Position numbers and translations under genes: made by a program. Below are positions 26,665 to 35,576 of a DNA stretch of 40,795 nucleotides, piece by piece. Position 1 is the stretch's first letter. The number at the start of each line of letters is the position of its first letter. The DNA is taken from assembly GCF_900491935.1 (NCBI RefSeq), contig NZ_UEXK01000004.1, forward strand, positions 1,695,305 through 1,736,099, written 5' to 3'. This stretch comes from Klenkia terrae (GTDB lineage: Bacteria; Actinomycetota; Actinomycetes; Mycobacteriales; Geodermatophilaceae). The notes below the pieces were generated by a model. It did not search any database. It was not told the DNA's origin and worked only from the letters and a program-made list of their open reading frames with translations.

Positions 26665-26733
26665 CCCACCGGACATCCCGTCCACAACCGTGACGCCCGC
26701 CGGGCTCAGGGATGGGATGATCCGGAGGTGACG

Positions 26734-27405
26734 GTGTCCATGCTCGACCGGGCCATCTACTCCTTCGGGGATGTGGACCGCCTCGTCGGCCTGCCCGCTG
26801 GCACCGCCCGTCGTTGGCTCGACGGGTACGAGCGCTCAGGGTCCCGCTACGAACCCGTTCTCCGCGAGCACTCCGACGGTTCGGCGGCCGTCACCTGGGG
26901 TGAGCTCGTCGAGGCCCGCCTGCTCGCCGAGTTCCGTTCCCGCAAGGTGTCCATGCAGAGGATGCGTCCGGCGGTCGCTGCCCTGCGCGACGAGTTCGGG
27001 CGTTACCCCCTGGCCCATGCGCGCCCCTTCCTGACCGTCGACAACCGAGAGCTCGTCCGCCGCATGCAGGATCGACTCGAGCTGGACCCCGACCTGAGTC
27101 TCGTGGTCGTTCGCAACGGTCAGGTGGTCCTGTCGGCCGCTGCGGAGCGGTTCCAGCACTCGGTGCACTACGAGGACGACGCCGTCGCACTCATCCGGCC
27201 TTCCGCAGCGACACCTGACGTGACCATGGACCCCGCCCGGTCCTTCGGGCAGCCGACTGTCCGAGGAATCCGTACCGACGCCATCGCCGAGGACTTCCGC
27301 GCCGGCAGCGAGAGGGACGAACTGGTCGAGCTGTACGACTTGACGCCGACCTTGGTGGATCAAGCGATTCGATTCGAGCTGATCGCCGCCCGCGACGCCG
27401 CCTGA
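26734..27405 (+). CDS. DUF433 antitoxin with MerR-like N-terminus
   Basis: This 223-residue protein has a helix-turn-helix-like N-terminus (YSFGDVDRLVGLPAGTARRWLDGYERSG, about 9-36) and a middle part with VTWGELVEARLLAEFR. The C-terminal DUF433 domain is about residues 165-217 (ARSFGQPTVRGIRTDAIAEDFRAG..DELVELYDLTPTLVDQAIRFE). DUF433 proteins of this long form are usually paired with a PIN-like toxin, and the next gene fits. GTG 26734 is 5 bases after GGAGG; GTG 26728 overlaps that ribosome binding site and was rejected. Codon use is looser than in neighbours (many TCA, GAA, GTT, CGT, GCT), suggesting acquisition by transfer. The HTH suggests it represses its own operon. Confidence 0.82.
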   Translation: MSMLDRAIYSFGDVDRLVGLPAGTARRWLDGYERSGSRYEPVLREHSDGSAAVTWGELVEARLLAEFRSRKVSMQRMRPAVAALRDEFGRYPLAHARPFLTVDNRELVRRMQDRLELDPDLSLVVVRNGQVVLSAAAERFQHSVHYEDDAVALIRPSAATPDVTMDPARSFGQPTVRGIRTDAIAEDFRAGSERDELVELYDLTPTLVDQAIRFELIAARDAA

Positions 27406-27408
27406 CCG

Positions 27409-27828
27409 GTGGCCGCGCTGGCGGGGGTCACGTTCTTCGCCGACGAGAACTGCCTCGGCATGGCCCGTTGCCTCTTGAAGGAGGGCCGGGACGACGTCGT
27501 GCACCCGGGCCACGTCCTGCTGCCCGACGTACCTCTCGGTTGCCCGGACCTCGAATGGATGGCGACCATCGCACGCCACGACCTCGTCGTCCTCACCCGC
27601 GACAGACGCATCCGGACCCGGCCGGCGGAGTTGACCGAGTACCGGTCTCAAGGCCTGCGCGTGGTGTTCCTCGCCGGGAAGACCGATCGACGACCCAGCG
27701 AACAGGCGGCACTGTTCCTGCGACACGAGACCCGTCTGCGACGGGAGATGGTCAAGCGAGGCCCTGGTCCATGGGCGCTGACGATGAGCGAACGCGACCT
27801 CCGGCCGATCGACCTGCCCGACAACTGA
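27409..27828 (+). CDS. PIN-like toxin (VapC45/DUF5615 type)
   Basis: This is a 139-residue probable ribonuclease toxin. FFADENCLG gives the first acidic pair (Asp12, Glu13). GCPDLEWMATIARHDLVVLTRDRRIRTRPAE gives Asp47, Glu49 and Asp65, the layout of the PIN-like VapC45/DUF5615 group, where acidic residues hold a metal ion for RNA cutting. A Lys/Arg-rich C-terminal part follows. GTG 27409 starts 3 bases after the DUF433 stop, so the two are translated together. The family pairing and coupling argue for a toxin-antitoxin module, and all the expected acidic residues seem to be present, so it is probably active. The RNA target is unknown. Confidence 0.8.
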   Translation: MAALAGVTFFADENCLGMARCLLKEGRDDVVHPGHVLLPDVPLGCPDLEWMATIARHDLVVLTRDRRIRTRPAELTEYRSQGLRVVFLAGKTDRRPSEQAALFLRHETRLRREMVKRGPGPWALTMSERDLRPIDLPDN

Positions 27829-27848: not shown

Positions 27849-28964
27849 GTGGAGACGACCGGCGCGGTGCTGCGCGGCGAGGGTGGCCGGTACGAACTGG
27901 TGACGCTGGAGGTCGGCGACCCCGGCCCCGGTGAGGTGCTGGTCGAGATGGCCTACGCCGGGCTCTGCCACTCCGACGAGCACCTGCGGCACTCCAACGC
28001 CGGCGGGAAGTACCCGATCGTCGGCGGCCACGAGGGCTCGGGCGTCGTCCTGGCCGTCGGGCCGGGCGTGCGCCGGGTCGCCCCGGGCGACCACGTGGTG
28101 GCCAGCTTCCTGCCCGCCTGCGGCACCTGCCGGTGGTGCGCGTCGGGCCGGTCCAACCTGTGCGACCTGGGCGCCACCATCGCCACCGGTCAGCTGCCCA
28201 CCGGCACCTGGCCGTTCCGGCTGGACGGCGAGCCGCTGGGCGGGTTCTGCATGGTCGGCGCGTTCGCCCGGCACTCGCTGCTCAGCGAGGCCTCCTGCAT
28301 CCGGATCGACCCGTGGCTGCCGCTGGACACCGCGGCGCTGATGGCCTGCAGCGTGCCCACCGGGTGGGGCTCGGCGGTCTACGCCGGCGGCACCCGCCCC
28401 GGGGACACCGTCGTCGTCGTCGGCTGCGGCGGGGTGGGCGCCAACGCGGTGCAGGGCGCCGTCCACGCCGGGGCGTCGAACATCGTCGCCGTCGACCCGG
28501 TCGCGTTCCGCCGGGAGTTCGCCGAGTCCGTCGGCGCCACGCACGCCGTCGAGGACACCCGGAGCGCGGCGATGCTCGCCCGCGAGCTGACCCGGGGCAA
28601 CGGCGCCGACGTCGTCGTCCTCGCGGTCGGGGCCACCGCCGCCGAGGGCACCCGCCAGGCCGCCCGCTGCCTGGGCAAGGGCGGAACGCTGGTGCTGACG
28701 GCGCTGGCCGACATCGGCTCCGACGTCACGGTGTCGCTGCAGGGCAACGGGCTCACCGTCTACGAGCACCGCATCCAGGGCGCGCTGTTCGGCAGCTGCA
28801 ACGCCCACCGCGACGTCCCGATGCTGCTGCGGCTGGCCAGCGAGGGGAAGCTCGAGCTGGACCGGCTGGTCACCCGCCGGTACGCCCTGGACCAGCTCGA
28901 GCAGGGCTTCGCCGACCAGGCCGCCGGCGAGACCATCCGCGGCCTGCTGGTGCACGCGGACTGA
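27849..28964 (+). CDS. Zinc alcohol dehydrogenase, NDMA-dependent (nicotinoprotein) type
   Basis: A 371-residue medium-chain dehydrogenase that oxidises alcohols to aldehydes. Catalytic zinc ligands are Cys40 and His61-Glu62; the structural zinc is held by Cys91, 94, 97 and 105 (ACGTCRWCASGRSNLC). The cofactor fold has VVVVGCGGVGANAVQGAVHAGA. The wording LCHSDEHL, GGHEGSGVV and MACSVPTGWGSAVYAGGTRPGDTV matches the NDMA-dependent alcohol dehydrogenases of Actinomycetota. In those, NAD stays bound and electrons leave through another carrier, thought to be mycofactocin. GTG 27849 is 20 bases after the toxin stop, with TAGACA 6 bases ahead. Its stop touches the stop of the converging permease gene without a gap. 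It is not clearly part of a pathway here. Confidence 0.87.
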   Translation: METTGAVLRGEGGRYELVTLEVGDPGPGEVLVEMAYAGLCHSDEHLRHSNAGGKYPIVGGHEGSGVVLAVGPGVRRVAPGDHVVASFLPACGTCRWCASGRSNLCDLGATIATGQLPTGTWPFRLDGEPLGGFCMVGAFARHSLLSEASCIRIDPWLPLDTAALMACSVPTGWGSAVYAGGTRPGDTVVVVGCGGVGANAVQGAVHAGASNIVAVDPVAFRREFAESVGATHAVEDTRSAAMLARELTRGNGADVVVLAVGATAAEGTRQAARCLGKGGTLVLTALADIGSDVTVSLQGNGLTVYEHRIQGALFGSCNAHRDVPMLLRLASEGKLELDRLVTRRYALDQLEQGFADQAAGETIRGLLVHAD

Positions 28965-29858
28965 TCAGCCCTTGACCGCCCCCTCGTTGGCCCCGCCGAC
29001 GAAGTAGCGCTGGAAGACGAAGAAGACGACGGCCACCGGGATGGTCATCAGCAGCGCGGCACCCAGGGTGAGCGGGAACTGGTTGCCCGAGCCCAGCTGG
29101 CCGGTCGTCAGCGTCGCCACGCCCTTGGTCAGCGTGTAGAGGTCCCGGTCCTGGGACGCCACGATGAAGTGCGGCAGCTCGTTCCACGACGCCTGGAAGC
29201 TGAGGATGGTCAGCGTGATCAGCGCCGGGCGGGCCATCGGCAGCACGACCGACCAGAACACCCGGAAGGTGCCGGCGCCGTCGATCCGCGCCGCCTCCTC
29301 GATCGAGGCCGGGACCGACTCGAAGAACTGCTTCATGATGAAGATGCCCGCGGCGTCGGCGACCAGCGGCAGGAACAGCGCCACCGGGGTGTCGTAGATG
29401 CCGAGCTGGTTGAGCACCAGGAACTTCGGGATCAGCAGGACGACGCCGGGCACCGCCATGACCGCCAGGACGGCGCTGAACACCGCCGACCGGCCGCGGA
29501 AGTGCAACCGGGCCAGCGCGTAGCCGGCGAGGGAGTCCAGGAACACCCGCAGGCCGGTGACCAGCACCGACACCCAGACCGAGTTGAACGCCCACAGCCC
29601 GAAGTCGGTGTCGAACAGCCGGCCGAACGCGGCCGCGGTGAGCGGGTCGGGCAGGAGCGCCAGCGGGTTGTTCGTGGCGTCGCCGTTGGTCTTGAACGAC
29701 GTCACGACCTGGATGAGGAACGGGTACAGGTAGACGACGGAGAAGAAGACCAGCACGACGTAGGCCAGGAAGCGGCCCACCTGCCGGCCGGGCAGCCGGC
29801 GGCGGGGTGCCTCCGGCGCTGGGGCGTCGTCGACGGGGGTCTCGAGGGTGGTGGTCAC
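28965..29858 (-). CDS. Sugar ABC transporter permease, MalG type
   Basis: This 297-residue inner-membrane subunit of a carbohydrate importer has six hydrophobic helices. The cytoplasmic loop EEAARIDGAGTFRVFWSVVLPMARPALITL is the EAA motif that contacts the ATPase. The C-terminus QRYFVGGANEGAVKG is typical of the MalG/CUT1 branch. GTG 29858 begins 4 bases after the stop of the partner permease. It is the last gene of the importer operon, and its stop directly abuts the stop of the converging alcohol dehydrogenase gene, with the palindrome CTGATCAG across both. Confidence 0.92.
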   Translation of the reverse strand: MTTTLETPVDDAPAPEAPRRRLPGRQVGRFLAYVVLVFFSVVYLYPFLIQVVTSFKTNGDATNNPLALLPDPLTAAAFGRLFDTDFGLWAFNSVWVSVLVTGLRVFLDSLAGYALARLHFRGRSAVFSAVLAVMAVPGVVLLIPKFLVLNQLGIYDTPVALFLPLVADAAGIFIMKQFFESVPASIEEAARIDGAGTFRVFWSVVLPMARPALITLTILSFQASWNELPHFIVASQDRDLYTLTKGVATLTTGQLGSGNQFPLTLGAALLMTIPVAVVFFVFQRYFVGGANEGAVKG

Positions 29859-29862
29859 GCGG

Positions 29863-31023
29863 TCACCGTCCGGCCTGGAAGAAGGTGGTCTTGGACGACG
29901 CCGCCCGGGCCCGCTGGGTGGCCTTGAGCGCCTTCTTCTCGGCGGCGGCGTCCTTGTCGCGCATGAGGAACCGCTGCACCGAGGTGAGCACGATGATGAT
30001 CGCGAACAGCACGAACGACATCGCGGCCGCGCGGCCCCACTGGCCGCTGACGAACGCCGAGGTGTAGCTGAGGAACGCCGGGGTGAGCGTGGTCTTGGCC
30101 GGGTTGCCCTGGCTGATCAGGTAGACCTGGTCGAACACCTGCCAGGTGCCGATCAGGCCCAGGGTGATGACGAGGAACAAGGTCGGCCGCAGCGCCGGCA
30201 GCGTGACCGCGCGGAACCGCTGCCAGGAGTTGGCGCCGTCCATCACCGCCGCCTCGCGGACGTCGTTGGGCACGTCCTGCAGCGCGGCCAGGAACATCAG
30301 CATGTAGCCACCGGCCGACGTCCAGACCACCAGCAAGATCAGCGCGGCCAGCGCGATCGACGGCCCGGACAGCCAGTCCCACCAGGACAGCCCGAGCGGG
30401 CCGCCATCGGTCAGCGCGGCCGGCGGGGAGTCGGCGTCCCAGAACCCGAGGCCGTCGCCGATCAGGTGCAGCAGGCCGCGGGAGTCGCTGAACCAGTTGG
30501 GCCCGTCGATGCCGACCAGGCCGAGCAGGCCGTTGACCGCCCCGCCGCCGGTGAACAGGAAGATGAACACCAGGCTGATCGCCACCGAGCTGGTGACGGT
30601 CGGGAAGTAGAACGCCGTCCGGAAGAAGCCCTTGGCCCGGATCTTCGAGTTGAGCACCAGCGCCAGGCCGAGCGCGATCGCCGTCTGCAGCGGGACCACC
30701 AGCAGGACGTACCAGGCGTTGTTGCGCAGGGCGGTCATGAAGTCCTGCCGGGCCAGGCCCGGCTCGGTCAGGATCGCGGCGTAGTTGTCGAACCCGACGA
30801 AGCCGACCTGGCCGGTGAACGGCGATCCCCGCCCGCGCCAGTCGGTGAGGCTGACCCAGAACGCCATGAGGATCGGGATCAACACGAAGAGCCCGATCAG
30901 CACGAGCTGCGGGGCGGCGAAGGACCAGCCGGCCCGCCCCTGCCCGGCCCGGGACGAGCTGCGCCCCGACCCCCGCGGGGAGGCGGTCGCCAGGGCCCCT
31001 GCGGGAGCCGGGGCCGCGGTCAT
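29863..31023 (-). CDS. Sugar ABC transporter permease, MalF type
   Basis: This 386-residue partner permease has a Ser/Arg-rich N-terminus, then six main hydrophobic helices, starting QLVLIGLFVLIPILMAFWVSLTDW. The family's EAA loop reads REAAVMDGANSWQRFRAVTLPALRPTLFLV. Between helices there is an insertion (about 175-225, GPNWFSDSRGLLHLIGDGLGFWDADSPPAALTDGG) that is longer than in most CUT1 permeases. ATG 31023 overlaps the binding-protein stop (ATGA). The C-terminus is a basic, Lys/Ala-rich tail (about 350-386). Confidence 0.92.
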   Translation of the reverse strand: MTAAPAPAGALATASPRGSGRSSSRAGQGRAGWSFAAPQLVLIGLFVLIPILMAFWVSLTDWRGRGSPFTGQVGFVGFDNYAAILTEPGLARQDFMTALRNNAWYVLLVVPLQTAIALGLALVLNSKIRAKGFFRTAFYFPTVTSSVAISLVFIFLFTGGGAVNGLLGLVGIDGPNWFSDSRGLLHLIGDGLGFWDADSPPAALTDGGPLGLSWWDWLSGPSIALAALILLVVWTSAGGYMLMFLAALQDVPNDVREAAVMDGANSWQRFRAVTLPALRPTLFLVITLGLIGTWQVFDQVYLISQGNPAKTTLTPAFLSYTSAFVSGQWGRAAAMSFVLFAIIIVLTSVQRFLMRDKDAAAEKKALKATQRARAASSKTTFFQAGR

Positions 31024-32258
31024 CCGCCGATCGCCTGCTCGAGGTTGGTCTGGGTGGACTGCAGGATCTCGGCCGGGTCACCGGTCTCGATCGCCCCCAG
31101 CTGGCTGTCGAAGTCCTGCAGCACCGGCTCGACGCCCGGTGCGTTGACCGGCCCCTGCGCGTAGTCGGCACCCGCGATGTAGGCCTCCCGCTCGGGGAAC
31201 TGCTGCAGGTAGGCGTCGGCCAGGGACTGGCGCGAGGGGAGCACACCGGTGTCCTGGGTCAGCGGGGTCATCGCGTCGGCGCCGGTCAGGTAGGTGGCCA
31301 GGTCGACCGCGGCGTCCTGCGCGTCGCTGTCGGCGGCCACGGCCAGGCAGTTGGTGAACGACAGCGTGCCCGAGCCGCCGGGGCCCTCAGGCAGCGGGAC
31401 GACGGTGTAGCCGACGTCCGGGTAGTCGTTGGCCATGCCGCCGACCAGCCAATTGCCCTCGATGGTCATCGCGGCCTTGCCGGTGCCCAGGGCCTCCACG
31501 CCGTCCCCGGCGTCGACGTCACCCGGGAAGCTGAAGCTGCCGGCCTGCAGGTTGGTCTGCAGGTACTGCAGCGCCTCGAGGTTCTCCGGGCTGTCCGCGG
31601 TGACCTCGCCGCCGTCCTCCGACAGGAACCAGCCGCCGCCCTCGACCATGAACGCACCGACCCGGTCCCGGGTGGCGTTGACGACCAGGCCGGTCTGCTC
31701 GCCGGTGGTCAGCCGCTGGGCGACCGTCGCCAGCTGCTCCCACGTGGTCGGGTAGTCGGCCTCGGTCAGGCCGGCGGCCGACCAGGCGGCGTCGTTGATC
31801 TCCAGCGCCAGGGTGGAGAAGTCCTTGGGCAGGCAGTACTGCGTGTCCTGGTAGGTGAACGCGTCGACCAGGTTCGGGTAGAAGTCGTCGAGGTCGTCGA
31901 CCTGGTCCAGGTAGGGGAACAGGTTGCCGGCGTCGGCCTGGTCGGCCAGCCGGCTGGCGTCGAGGTAGAAGACGTCGGGCGGGTTGCCGCCGGCGAAGCC
32001 CTGGGCCAGCTCCTGGGAGAGGTCGGCGGCGACCTGGACGTCGACGGTGTTGCCCGACTCCTCCTCGTAGGCGTCGACCTGGGACTGCACGGCCTGGGTC
32101 TCGGCGTCGCCGGAGCTGGCGATGAGCATGGTGAGCGAGGCGCTGCCCGACTCCTGCTGCTCGGCGCCGTCGTCGAAGCCACCACCGCAGGCGGCGGCCA
32201 GGGACAGCGCGGCGACGGCGACGGCGGCCTGCGCGGACCGGCGGATGGGGTGTCTCAC
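31020..32258 (-). CDS. Sugar-binding lipoprotein of the ABC importer
   Basis: This 412-residue family 1 solute-binding protein captures the sugar outside the cell. The signal peptide ends in the lipobox LAAAC (Cys24), followed by a Gly/acidic linker. The mature part shows NPPDVFYLDASRLADQADAGNLFPYL, PKDFSTLALEINDAAWSAAGL, TTWEQLATVAQRL and GKAAMTIEGNWLVGG, all standard for MalE-like proteins of the CUT1 group. GTG 32258 follows AGAGGAGGAACCCCGA. It lies 73 bases after the lacI-type gene with no promoter or operator visible between, so it is probably read from the lacI promoter. No ATPase gene is present; actinobacteria often use one shared MsiK-type ATPase for such importers. Confidence 0.93.
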   Translation of the reverse strand: MRHPIRRSAQAAVAVAALSLAAACGGGFDDGAEQQESGSASLTMLIASSGDAETQAVQSQVDAYEEESGNTVDVQVAADLSQELAQGFAGGNPPDVFYLDASRLADQADAGNLFPYLDQVDDLDDFYPNLVDAFTYQDTQYCLPKDFSTLALEINDAAWSAAGLTEADYPTTWEQLATVAQRLTTGEQTGLVVNATRDRVGAFMVEGGGWFLSEDGGEVTADSPENLEALQYLQTNLQAGSFSFPGDVDAGDGVEALGTGKAAMTIEGNWLVGGMANDYPDVGYTVVPLPEGPGGSGTLSFTNCLAVAADSDAQDAAVDLATYLTGADAMTPLTQDTGVLPSRQSLADAYLQQFPEREAYIAGADYAQGPVNAPGVEPVLQDFDSQLGAIETGDPAEILQSTQTNLEQAIGG

Positions 32259-32331: not shown

Positions 32332-33423
32332 TCAGTGGGTGCCGGACGGCGGGAACGGCAGGCTCGCCGCGGACGGCGCGGCGTCGTCACCGCGCTGCGA
32401 GCTGGCCCGGACGACCAGCCGCGGCGGCAGCAGCACCGGCTGGTCGGCGGCCGGGGAGCCGGGCGGGCCGGGGTCCAGCTGGCCGCGGAGCAGCTCGATG
32501 CAGGCCGCGGCGGCCGCGACGACCGGCTGGGCGACCGAGGTGAGCCCCAGGGCGGCGGCGACCGGGCTGTCGTCGAAGCCCACGACGGCGACGTCCCGGC
32601 CGGGTCGGCGGCCGAGCTCCTGGACGGCGCCCAGCGCGCCGAGGGCGAGGGAGTCGCTGGCGCAGACCAGGGCGGTCACCCCGCGCGCGGCGAGCAGGCC
32701 GAGGGCGGTGGCCTGGGCGACGGCGAGATCGTCGGGGAGCCCGGCCTCCAGGCCGGCGACGGGCAGGCCGGCCGAGGACATGGCGTCCACCCAGCCGGCC
32801 CGCCGGTCGTCGCCGGTGCCCGAGCCGGCCGGCCAGCCGAGCCAGGCGATCCGGGTGTGCCCCTGGGCGACCAGGTGCTCGACGGCCGCGCGGGTGCCCG
32901 CCGCGCCGTCGACGTCGACCCAGCTGCGCCCGTCCGGGTCGTCCCAGGGCCGGCCGAAGCTGGCCACCGGCAGCCGGCGGCGGCGCAGCCAGGCGGTGCG
33001 CGGGTCGCCGTGGGAGGTGCCGGTCAGCACGAACGCGTCGACGGCGAAGGAGGCGACGAGCTCGTCGTAGGCGCCCACCTCGGCCTCGGCGTCGTCGGCG
33101 GTGAAGAGCACCAGCCGCTGGCCGGACTCCTCGGCGCTGCGGGTCAGCGCGTGCAGGAACTGGTCGAGCACGCTGCCGCCGAAGGCCTCGCGGACCGGCT
33201 CGATGCGCATGGCGATGAGCTGCGACCGGTGGCTGCGCATCTGCTGGGCGGCCCGCAGCGGGCGGTAGCCGACCTCGTCGATGACCGCCCGGACCCGGTC
33301 CAGGGTGGCCCCGCTGACCAGGTGCGGTGCGTTGAGCACGTTGCTCACGGTCTGCTTGGAGACCTGGGCGAGCGCAGCGACGCTGGCGAGCGTGGGCCGC
33401 TCGACGCCGTCGTCGGGGTGCAT
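32332..33423 (-). CDS. LacI-family regulator of the sugar importer
   Basis: This 363-residue repressor has an N-terminal LacI helix-turn-helix at about residues 10-55 (TLASVAALAQVSKQTVSNVLNAPHLVSGATLDRVRAVIDEVGYRP). The sugar-sensing periplasmic-binding-like domain follows (SQLIAMRIEP, GFDDSPVAAALGLTSVAQP). ATG 33423 follows AAAGGAGACAGCG; an upstream in-frame ATG at 33462 would read through the operator. The operator TTGGATCGGTCCAA lies 11 bases before its start, and a one-mismatch copy covers the start of the divergent debranching gene. It therefore probably represses itself, the importer operon and the divergent genes until a sugar binds. Confidence 0.92.
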   Translation of the reverse strand: MHPDDGVERPTLASVAALAQVSKQTVSNVLNAPHLVSGATLDRVRAVIDEVGYRPLRAAQQMRSHRSQLIAMRIEPVREAFGGSVLDQFLHALTRSAEESGQRLVLFTADDAEAEVGAYDELVASFAVDAFVLTGTSHGDPRTAWLRRRRLPVASFGRPWDDPDGRSWVDVDGAAGTRAAVEHLVAQGHTRIAWLGWPAGSGTGDDRRAGWVDAMSSAGLPVAGLEAGLPDDLAVAQATALGLLAARGVTALVCASDSLALGALGAVQELGRRPGRDVAVVGFDDSPVAAALGLTSVAQPVVAAAAACIELLRGQLDPGPPGSPAADQPVLLPPRLVVRASSQRGDDAAPSAASLPFPPSGTH

Positions 33424-33434
33424 CGCTGTCTCCT

Positions 33435-33448
33435 TTGGACCGATCCAA
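33435..33448. promoter_or_regulatory. LacI-type operator, lacI side
   Basis: Read on the minus strand this is TTGGATCGGTCCAA, a near-palindrome centred on CG, downstream of the predicted start of the lacI transcript and just before its ribosome binding site. Binding there would block elongation. The copy at 33533-33546 differs at one base. Confidence 0.7.
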
Positions 33449-33460
33449 GTGATCGGAGGC

Positions 33461-33490
33461 ACAGTGCGCCGGGTGCAGGGTGGCTGTCAA
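33461..33490 (-). promoter_or_regulatory. Promoter of lacI and the importer operon
   Basis: On the minus strand TTGACA (33490-33485), an 18-base spacer and CACTGT (33466-33461) form a promoter that would start RNA near 33454, just ahead of the operator. Confidence 0.6.
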
Positions 33491-33508
33491 GTGCGAGCTC
33501 GGTGCAGC

Positions 33509-33546
33509 TTGTGCGATCCGGCCGGGTTCGGGTTGGATCGGTCGAA
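33509..33546 (+). promoter_or_regulatory. Promoter and operator of the debranching gene
   Basis: TTGTGC (33509-33514) and TTGGAT (33533-33538) are separated by 18 bases. TTGGATCGGTCGAA (33533-33546) matches the lacI-side operator at 13 of 14 positions, covers the -10 box and ends on the A of ATG 33546. The messenger is probably leaderless. Confidence 0.55.
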
Positions 33547-35576
33547 TGACGAGCGACGCGGGCCTGCAGCCGACCGTCCACGAGCTCGACGTCTGCCTGC
33601 GGGCCCCGGTCACCGTGCTGTCGGCGCGGGACGGCGCGGTGCGCGGGCAGGGCGCCGAGGGGGTGTTCTGCGGCGACGTCCGGGCGCTGTCGGTGGTCGG
33701 GGTGACCGTGGCCGGTCGTCGTCCCGACGGCATCGGCGGGGGCAGCACCGGTCCGGGCACCAGCACGCACGTGGCCGTCGTCCGCGGGCTGGGCGACCCC
33801 GGCCCGGACCCGACGGTCCGGCTGGAGACCGTGCGCACGCTCACCGCCGACGGGCTCACCGAGACGCTGCGGCTGGTCTCCACCGCCGCCGCACCGGTGA
33901 CCGCCGAGGTGGTGCTGACCCTGGCCACCGACCTGGCCACCGTGGAGGAGGTCAAGAGCGGCCACCTGCGCCCCCTGCTGCGCCCGGACGGCGACGGGTG
34001 GTCCGGCCGCGGGGTCACCGTCGCGGTGCCCGGCCTCCAGGTGGACGGCGAGGTGGGCCGGCTGCGCTGGTCGGTCGTCGTCCCGCCGCGGGACGCCGTG
34101 GAGCTGACCTGGTCGGCGACCGTCACCGACCCCGGCGGGGTGACCACGGCCCCGCGCACCGCGGCCAGCTGGTCCACCCCGCGGGTCACCGCCGACGACT
34201 CCCGGCTGGCCGCGCTCGTCGAGCAGTCCCTGGAGGACCTGGCCGGGCTGCGGATGACCACCACGAGCGACCCGGACGACGTCTTCGCCGCCGCCGGGGC
34301 CCCCTGGTACCTGACCCTCTTCGGCCGGGACAGCCTCTGGACGGCGCGCTTGCTGCTGCCGCTGGGCACCGAGCTGGCGGCCGGCACGCTGCGCACCCTG
34401 GCCGCCCGGCAGGGCACCCGCCGGGACGACGCCACCGGCGAGGAGCCGGGCAAGATCCTGCACGAGATCCGCCGTCCCCCGGTGGCCGAGGAGGGCACGA
34501 CCCCGTTCCTGCCGCCGGTCTACTTCGGCACCGTCGACGCCACCCCGCTGTGGGTCTGCCTGCTGCACGACGCCTGGCGCTGGGGCCTGGACCCGGCCGT
34601 GGTCACCGAGCTGCTGGACCCGCTCGAGCGGGCGCTGGGGTGGCTGGCCACCGACGGCGACCCCGACGGCGACGGGTTCCTGGAGTACCTGGACCGCTCG
34701 GGCGCCGGGCTGGCCAACCAGGGCTGGAAGGACAGCGCGGACTCCGTCCGCTTCGCCGACGGCACGATCGCCGAGGGACCGATCGCGCTGTGCGAGGCGC
34801 AGGCCTACGCGCACGAGGCGGCCCTGGCCGGTGCGCACCTGCTGGAGGCGTTCGGCCGGCCCGGCGCCGACCGCTGGCGAGCCTGGGCCGCCGACCTGGC
34901 CGAGTGCTTCCGCGGCGCCTTCTGGGTCGCCGACGCCGAGGGCCGCTACCCGGCGATCGCGCTGGACGGCGCCAAGACCCCGGTGGACGCCCCGACCTCG
35001 AACATCGGCCACCTGCTGGGCACCGGGCTGCTCACCGCCGGGGAGTCCGCCGAGGTGGCCGCCCGGCTCGGGTCGCCGGCGATGGACTCCGGGTTCGGGT
35101 TGCGCACGATGGCCACCACCGCCGGCGGCTACGGCCCGCTGACCTACCACTGCGGGTCGGTCTGGCCGCACGACACCGCGATCACGCTCACCGGGCTGGC
35201 CCGCGACGGGCACGACGCGGTCGCCGGGTCGCTGGCCCGCGGGGTGCTGGCGGCCGGGGAGTCCTTCGCCTGGCGGCTGCCCGAGCTGTTCGCCGGCGAC
35301 GGCTCGGACGTCGTCCGGCGAGCGCTGGCCTACCCGGCCTCCTGCCGGCCGCAGGCCTGGTCGGCGGCCGCCGCGGTCGCCGTGCTGACCGCCGTGCTGG
35401 GGCTGCGGCCCGACGTCCCGGCCGGCCGGCTCGTCGTCCGGCCGCTGCAGCCGGCACCGCTGGGCGCGGTCCGGGTCGAGGGCCTGCGGATCGGGTCCGA
35501 CGACGTCACGGTGACCGTGTCTGCCGACGGCGCTGTCGAGGTGACTGGCTTCTCCGGGGAGGTCGCCGTCGGCTGA
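33546..35576 (+). CDS. Glycogen-debranching-type enzyme (amylo-alpha-1,6-glucosidase family)
   Basis: This 676-residue cytoplasmic protein has an N-terminal beta-rich domain (about 1-220; FCGDVRALS and the DGLTETLRLV repeat pattern) like the GDE_N_bis domain. The C-terminal part (about 235-640) is an (alpha/alpha)6-barrel. It has WYLTLFGRDSLWTARLLLPLG, GKILHEIRR, LPPVYFGTVDATPLWVCLLHDAW, GLANQGWKDSADSVRF and TYHCGSVWPHDTAITLTGL. These are the standard motifs of putative debranching and amylo-alpha-1,6-glucosidase proteins, which cleave side chains of alpha-glucans; real substrates of this branch are poorly known. ATG 33546 has no ribosome binding site and overlaps an operator. Divergent from and apparently co-regulated with the sugar importer, so it probably acts on the imported oligosaccharide. 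Confidence 0.87.
   Translation: MTSDAGLQPTVHELDVCLRAPVTVLSARDGAVRGQGAEGVFCGDVRALSVVGVTVAGRRPDGIGGGSTGPGTSTHVAVVRGLGDPGPDPTVRLETVRTLTADGLTETLRLVSTAAAPVTAEVVLTLATDLATVEEVKSGHLRPLLRPDGDGWSGRGVTVAVPGLQVDGEVGRLRWSVVVPPRDAVELTWSATVTDPGGVTTAPRTAASWSTPRVTADDSRLAALVEQSLEDLAGLRMTTTSDPDDVFAAAGAPWYLTLFGRDSLWTARLLLPLGTELAAGTLRTLAARQGTRRDDATGEEPGKILHEIRRPPVAEEGTTPFLPPVYFGTVDATPLWVCLLHDAWRWGLDPAVVTELLDPLERALGWLATDGDPDGDGFLEYLDRSGAGLANQGWKDSADSVRFADGTIAEGPIALCEAQAYAHEAALAGAHLLEAFGRPGADRWRAWAADLAECFRGAFWVADAEGRYPAIALDGAKTPVDAPTSNIGHLLGTGLLTAGESAEVAARLGSPAMDSGFGLRTMATTAGGYGPLTYHCGSVWPHDTAITLTGLARDGHDAVAGSLARGVLAAGESFAWRLPELFAGDGSDVVRRALAYPASCRPQAWSAAAAVAVLTAVLGLRPDVPAGRLVVRPLQPAPLGAVRVEGLRIGSDDVTVTVSADGAVEVTGFSGEVAVG

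Follow-up and report, generated by a model that had tools for sequence, protein, structure and literature searches.

Two matched candidate operators of a local LacI-family sugar switch in Klenkia terrae, one of them overlapping the start codon of a divergent glycosidase gene

Introduction

In the gal operon of Escherichia coli, GalR, a dimer without a tetramerisation tail, acts from two operators about 114 bp apart, and a loop formed with HU has been demonstrated for this system. The accessible text of a survey of more than 1300 LacI-family regulators reports that nearly 90% of them are local and 72% autoregulated, and that about 20% of the regulated operons carry multiple sites (PMC4052901). 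According to the same text, most operators of the family are even palindromes with a central CG, most motifs are 16–22 nt long and more than 75% of the sites are located 30–140 bp upstream of the start (PMC4052901).

Here, we analysed a stretch of 40,795 nucleotides from Klenkia terrae (hereafter the window; assembly GCF_900491935.1, contig NZ_UEXK01000004.1, positions 1,695,305 to 1,736,099 of the forward strand), in which a lacI gene followed by sugar importer genes faces a glycosidase gene. The locus fits the picture of local regulons that is drawn in the accessible text of PMC4052901. It is not named in the opening lines of the abstracts that we retrieved on LacI-family regulons, on looping, on leaderless genes with operators or on LacI in connection with glycogen debranching and Micromonospora. 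A literature search for LacI proteins of Klenkia or the Geodermatophilaceae returned nothing, and a search for PDB 7VMA returned only an unrelated paper.

Results

Gene content of the locus

The LacI-family repressor (363 aa) is encoded on the minus strand at 32332–33423 and matches PF00356, PF13377 and PF00532 above cut-off. Three genes of a sugar ABC transporter follow on the same strand. These encode a solute-binding lipoprotein (31020–32258; PF13416 and PF01547), whose likely start is the GTG at 32258 with GAGGAGG upstream, a MalF-type permease (29863–31023; PF00528, UgpA/MalF-like below the NCBIfam cut-offs) and a MalG-type permease (28965–29858; PF00528, MalG/UgpE-like below the NCBIfam cut-offs). 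We treat lacI and the importer genes as a presumptive single operon; because a gap of 73 bp separates lacI from the binding-protein gene, a separate promoter is possible there. The gene after the permeases (27849–28964) encodes a zinc-type alcohol dehydrogenase on the opposite strand. Further along, at 26728–27828 on the plus strand, two adjoining genes with HTH_66/DUF433 and PIN_10 domains resemble a PIN-type toxin-antitoxin pair in their composition.

No ATPase gene was seen beside the importer genes, and two MalK-type ATPases were found elsewhere in the genome. In Streptomyces, the ATPase MsiK serves importers that are encoded elsewhere, and one of the two distant MalK-type ATPases presumably serves this importer in the same fashion.

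The divergent gene (33546–35576, plus strand) encodes a GDE_N_bis/MGH1-like glycosidase of 676 aa (PF14742 and PF22422), and no second copy of it was found in the genome. The nearest PDB sequence is the amylo-alpha-1,6-glucosidase of Thermococcus gammatolerans (7vma; E = 4.2e-68, residues 222–659). The same entry is the top fold match of the predicted structure (26% identity), a match that is used for the enzyme class only, since the model is of moderate quality (mean pLDDT 70.6, with 174 of the 676 residues below 50). A preliminary description of this DNA had called the product a debranching enzyme. The protein matched only the PF14742 and PF22422 domains and 7vma; no NCBIfam model, and hence no curated GDE equivalog, matched it at E ≤ 0.001, so that "debranching enzyme" is used here as a class label for a predicted activity. 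The matches of the binding protein include Lmo0181 and GacH. Together with the nearest relative of the enzyme, they make an alpha-glucoside a reasonable guess for the inducer, and a response to sugar is what the LacI family and the neighbouring genes would lead one to expect.

Two matched sites in the intergenic spacer

Two 14-nt sites are present between the divergent genes. O1 (TTGGATCGGTCCAA; 33435–33448, minus strand) is located in the leader of lacI, with 11 bases between it and the ATG of that gene (33423–33421), whereas the last base of O2 (TTGGATCGGTCGAA; 33533–33546, plus strand) is the A of the glycosidase ATG, which begins at 33546. The two sites are identical at 13 of 14 bases, with a C versus a G at position 12, and both are even, imperfect palindromes with a central CG. 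A distance of 98 bp separates their centres (33441.5 and 33539.5). The preliminary description had reported this pair of 14-mers, and its coordinates, strands, single-base difference and centre distance were all borne out.

O1 and O2 are the only exact matches to the 14-mer in the window. With up to three mismatches, the window contains seven matches versus 2.62 expected; three of 100 shuffles reached seven. Dinucleotide shuffling of the spacer (500 replicates) never produced two sites matching the palindrome at 11 or more of 14 positions and produced at least one in 11 replicates, a test that is partly circular because the palindrome was written from O1, O2 and their relatives. When 18 spacers were each shuffled 500 times, two such sites were found in at most six replicates for any spacer. 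The genome scan with the 14-mer of the preliminary description and the analysis of conservation are independent of the palindrome.

Presumed promoters and start codon of the glycosidase gene

A sigma-70 consensus scan of the spacer detected neither promoter. On the lacI side, the presumed -35 box TTGACA (33485–33490, minus strand) has its first base 42 bp upstream of the start of O1 and is separated by 18 bp from the presumed -10 box CACTGT (33461–33466, minus strand), which is weak by consensus and well conserved. Twelve bases separate CACTGT from O1, a distance at which O1 would span approximately positions +6 to +19 in the transcript of lacI and the importer genes. Around this -10 box, the sequence GCACAGTGC (33459–33469) forms a small palindrome that is mostly conserved in L089–L095; it may bind another factor or may simply be the -10 region.

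On the glycosidase side, the presumed -35 box TTGTGC (33509–33514, plus strand) is followed after 18 bp by TTGGAT (33533–33538, plus strand), which forms the left part of O2 and is a candidate -10 box by its position and conservation, and then after 7 bp by the ATG. This layout fits a leaderless mRNA, and the glycosidase transcript is probably leaderless in this strain. The ATG at 33546 is the likely start because an in-frame stop precedes it, with no ATG, GTG or TTG in between, in L090, L092 and L093. An upstream start at GTG 33480 was ruled out by the same in-frame stop.

The preliminary description had interpreted the two sites as LacI operators, one blocking the lacI-importer transcript and the other covering the -10 box and start codon of the divergent gene. 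What holds of this is that the sites are matched, that they are conserved together with lacI (see below) and that O1 would fall on the importer transcript. O2 does coincide with the presumed promoter and start codon, although the -10 box there is weak by consensus.

Search for further sites

In the genome of 4,806,923 bases, O1 and O2 were the only exact matches to the 14-mer, and two further places matched with one mismatch. Looser matches are meaningless, since the 13 matches found genome-wide with up to two mismatches barely exceed the 10 of the reversed-pattern control. We also scanned the whole genome for the palindrome of the relatives, TTKGAWCGNTCMAA, with one mismatch; this returned only O1 (in both orientations) and O2, and the reversed control returned one match.

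A scan of nine Klenkia genomes with the genus form yielded six one-mismatch places away from the lacI locus. Two of them, L003 (1501–1514; G000:C4:460073–460086) and L113, lie 93 and 92 nt before a TerD gene. This TerD-side site (TAGGATCGGTCGAA) matches O2 at 13 of 14 bases and, among the Klenkia genomes, is present in both G000 and G003. It looks like a -10 box (TAGGAT), and in L003 it also lies inside a 533-codon open frame on the opposite strand. The other one-mismatch place of the K. terrae genome (L004) is within an open frame of more than 1000 codons, and L114, L103 and L112 are in frames of 881, 490 and 321 codons; frames like these last three are common by chance at this G+C. No convincing third site was found by the 14-mer scan, the genus-form scan of nine genomes or the TTKGAWCGNTCMAA scan. 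The wider regulon anticipated in the preliminary description, with the ATPase or alpha-glucosidases as members, did not materialise in the genome scan, and the regulon appears to be confined to the locus.

Conservation of the sites within Klenkia

Of the nine genomes in our genus set, eight carry lacI (called at E ≤ 1e-60). O1 and O2 are present in all eight, each matching the palindrome TTKGAWCGWTCMAA at 12 or 13 of 14 positions. Across these eight rows, mean pairwise identity is 0.83 for O1 and 0.95 for O2, compared to 0.59 for the other 95 positions of the spacer. The 14-bp segments starting at 33528–33533 tie as the most conserved stretch of the spacer, and O2 lies within it. TTGACA and CACTGT are also conserved (0.90 and 0.96, for six-base stretches set one base off), and part of the conservation of O2 may come from the -10 box and the ATG that it overlaps.

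The remaining genome (G006) presents no lacI at E ≤ 1e-60, no glycosidase at E 0.001 and no exact site, with one match at one mismatch; under the same search, the glycosidase query finds itself in G000. The whole spacer is presumably gone in G006. The best named relative of the locus is from a Klenkia metagenome-assembled genome (L008; LacI 83% identical), whose spacer is identical to that of G007 and which was left out of the genus counts.

O2 abuts the ATG in seven of the eight lacI-bearing genomes. In G005, where LacI is 96% identical, O2 reads TTGGAACGGTCCAA and is a better palindrome without an abutting ATG (L089:2718–2777). That the palindrome is better even though the site is freed from the ATG suggests selection as an operator, beyond a promoter or start signal. 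In-frame GTG, ATG and GTG codons are found 4, 25 and 43 nt after O2 in this genome, and the first codon of O2 itself is a TTG; this number of candidate starts weakens the argument from the loss of the ATG. Between G005 and the other genomes, the mRNA has possibly switched between a leaderless and a leadered form.

Related divergons outside the genus

We assembled 25 divergons in which a lacI relative (LacI 42–57% identical) faces a glycosidase relative: L009–L012, L016, L024–L026, L097, L118–L128, L130, L132, L141, L148 and L161. The genomes that carry them include Micromonospora, Streptomyces and Jiangella as well as an Actinomycetes and a Chloroflexi metagenome-assembled genome; some of the divergons are near relatives of one another, and the later loci were drawn from the best 30 of 41 matches. 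L147 is a duplicate of L127, and the glycosidase match of L012 begins at residue 152, its start being extrapolated. Among 80 lacI-relative loci, L027–L037 (LacI 34–37% identical, no glycosidase match) served for gene order only and L038–L087 were left out.

Two sites matching at 12 or more of 14 positions were identified in 20 of these 25 divergons. Four divergons presented one such site (L097, L125, L148 and L141, the last with a second at 11/14), and L161 presented a single site at 11/14 only. In all 20 two-site rows, both sites are in the lacI leader, downstream of the lacI -35 box, with centre spacings of 30 bp (8 rows), 31 bp (2), 32 bp (5), 33 bp (1), 50 bp (1), 51 bp (2) and 52 bp (1). 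The first operator begins 37–49 bp downstream of the first base of TTGAC[AC] in each of the 32 rows that have this box, nine genus rows with L008 included; L148 and L161 are without the box, and of the two boxes in L120, L124 and L130 the fitting one was taken. At the glycosidase start, none of the 25 divergons had a site at 11 or more of 14 positions, and a scan down to 10/14 in nine rows gave one weak match at a start, in L025. Since the start-codon operator was seen only in this genus, O1 appears to be the old part of the system and the enzyme-side O2 appears lineage-specific. A deletion may have removed the tandem site, given that the lacI leader of the genus is short after O1.

Among 20 loci with a glycosidase relative (L147–L166, the window's own aside), 17 had no lacI relative in the DNA examined. 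Further lacI relatives (10 and 15 loci, at least 47% identical) had no glycosidase nearby, and 14 of the 15 had one site and the other none. A second LacI clade (about 47–51% identical; L013–L015, L017–L023 and L096) is arranged back to back with RadA, which TIGR00416 confirmed in L022 (4457–5860) only and which was recognised by eye in some of the other loci. The leader of this clade often contains one similar operator.

Spacing of the sites and the LacI tail

Within the genus, O1 and O2 are spaced by 98, 99, 107 or 108 bp, forming two classes about one helical turn apart. In a phase test on seven spacings that can be taken as roughly independent, R was 0.76 at 10.95 bp, a period chosen by scanning, and 0.56 at 10.5 bp; the value of 0.76 was reached by 4.4% of jittered sets. 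The five outgroup spacings alone and the genus alone gave marginal results (3.9% and 4.8% of jittered sets, respectively), and the 20 outgroup rows, which are related, gave R = 0.82 at 10.5 bp without a control.

No tetramerisation tail of the E. coli type was recognisable in LacI. The tail of the protein, RASSQRGDDAAPSAASLPFPPSGTH, presents no leucine heptads by eye, and a match to NF007075, itself below cut-off, aligned only to position 338 of 358, the end of this model being what we take to be the tetramerisation part. A loop would need dimer contacts like those of GalR.

Discussion

It is likely that O1 and O2 are operators of the adjacent LacI in a local, autoregulated divergon. We base this proposal on the sites themselves, on how they are conserved and co-occur with lacI, on gene order and on the absence of further sites: a LacI-family gene adjoins, both sites are kept in 8/8 genomes with lacI, and the genome without lacI also lacks the glycosidase and an exact site. 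Without sugar, LacI dimers would occupy O1, near the beginning of the lacI-importer transcript (about +6 to +19), and a dimer on O2 would cover the glycosidase gene from its presumed -10 box through the start codon, so that RNA polymerase would be blocked by bound LacI in both directions. LacI would be released by the imported sugar or oligosaccharide, or by its product, and through this release the importer and the glycosidase would come on together. Among the observations that stand against the model, neither promoter was detected by the sigma-70 scan, and outside the genus the glycosidase start has no operator of its own, so that control of the enzyme by LacI is only a possibility there.

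Alternatively, only O1 might be a LacI operator, and the likeness of O2 would then reflect the conserved -10 box, start of transcription and ATG that a leaderless gene has. O2 indeed overlaps the presumed -10 box and the ATG and lies where the spacer is best conserved, a -10-like sequence at the TerD promoter (TAGGATCGGTCGAA) reaches 13/14 as well, and an operator at the glycosidase start was found in 0/25 outgroup divergons. We nevertheless consider this explanation improbable, because O2 equals O1 at 13/14 bases, most of the right half included, and because in G005 the site keeps and even improves its palindrome though the ATG is gone. The absence of an exact site from G006, which lacks lacI and the glycosidase, points the same way, although the whole spacer is presumably gone there. 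It is far less probable still that LacI control extends beyond this locus, for instance to the importer ATPase or to TerD. Such control would accommodate an importer operon in which no ATPase gene was found while two MalK-type ATPases are encoded elsewhere, and the TerD-side 13/14 site is common to G000 and G003; yet TTKGAWCGNTCMAA at up to one mismatch finds no other genomic site, the sequence around the TerD match is conserved too, so that the match is not singled out, and the L004 place is inside an open frame of more than 1000 codons.

For the local divergon with two operators, a further possibility, raised in the preliminary description, is that LacI dimers bridge O1 and O2 in a short, gal-like repression loop and shut both promoters as one unit. 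We find such bridging doubtful. The two spacing classes of the genus about one turn apart, the outgroup spacings of 30–33 or 50–52 bp, near three and five turns, and the phase signal at 10.95 bp over seven spacings (reached by 4.4% of jittered sets) would all fit it, as would the R of 0.82 at 10.5 bp in the outgroup, whose rows are related and have no control. However, the phase test is marginal, with a scanned period and an R of only 0.56 at 10.5 bp, a single indel could explain both spacing classes, and neither the tail without heptads by eye nor the NF007075 alignment, which stops at 338/358, suggests a tetramer.

The outgroup suggests a tentative history, which we put forward as a possible but rather unlikely scenario. 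The ancestral switch would have consisted of two tandem operators in the lacI leader, three or five turns apart. In the genus, this leader would have shrunk and the tandem operator been lost, and a new operator would have arisen on the -10 box and start of the leaderless glycosidase gene, about 9–10 turns away. A pair that worked cooperatively at a single promoter would thereby have been turned into one that may close two promoters by way of a short loop formed by dimeric LacI.

Overall, O1 and O2 look like parts of a real, well-conserved but ordinary local LacI sugar switch, whose unusual point is a second operator on the start codon, a placement that seems specific to the lineage. Knowledge of LacI regulation itself is unchanged by these results. 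For an uncharacterised PF14742 glycosidase and its importer, they predict a sugar switch confined to one locus. They also provide a natural series of places for the second operator, namely in the lacI leader (most relatives examined), on the start codon (the genus) and off the ATG (G005), which could show how divergent promoters become rewired under one repressor.

Among described enzymes, 7vma is the nearest to the glycosidase by both sequence and fold, but identity in the fold alignment is 26% and the protein studied here has a PF14742 N-terminal domain, its activity being predicted. Like the gal operon, the locus combines a LacI-family repressor without a recognisable tetramerisation tail and two matched operators about ten turns apart; unlike the gal operon, where the loop is demonstrated, the spacing varies here and looping can be suggested only with little confidence. 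In the accessible text of PMC4052901, AglR and ThuR resemble this LacI in that each regulates its own gene and one divergent operon, with an ABC sugar transporter and a hydrolase as targets and even palindromes with a central CG as operators. In contrast to the AglR/ThuR type, the regulator gene here lies in front of the importer genes, and it is the hydrolase gene that diverges. Also in contrast to the survey as described in that text, one operator covers a start codon and the recognised part is 14 nt long. AmlR of Actinoplanes sp. SE50/110 is, in the accessible text of PMC6828939, likewise an actinomycete repressor of the LacI type that acts locally on a sugar hydrolase gene. Its motif, found once in the genome, is an even palindrome with a central CG that overlaps a promoter hexamer, as proposed here for O2. 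AmlR differs in having one 12-nt operator, on the -35 hexamer of a maltase gene (PMC6828939), whereas the K. terrae locus presents two matched sites, the second reaching the start codon of the glycosidase.
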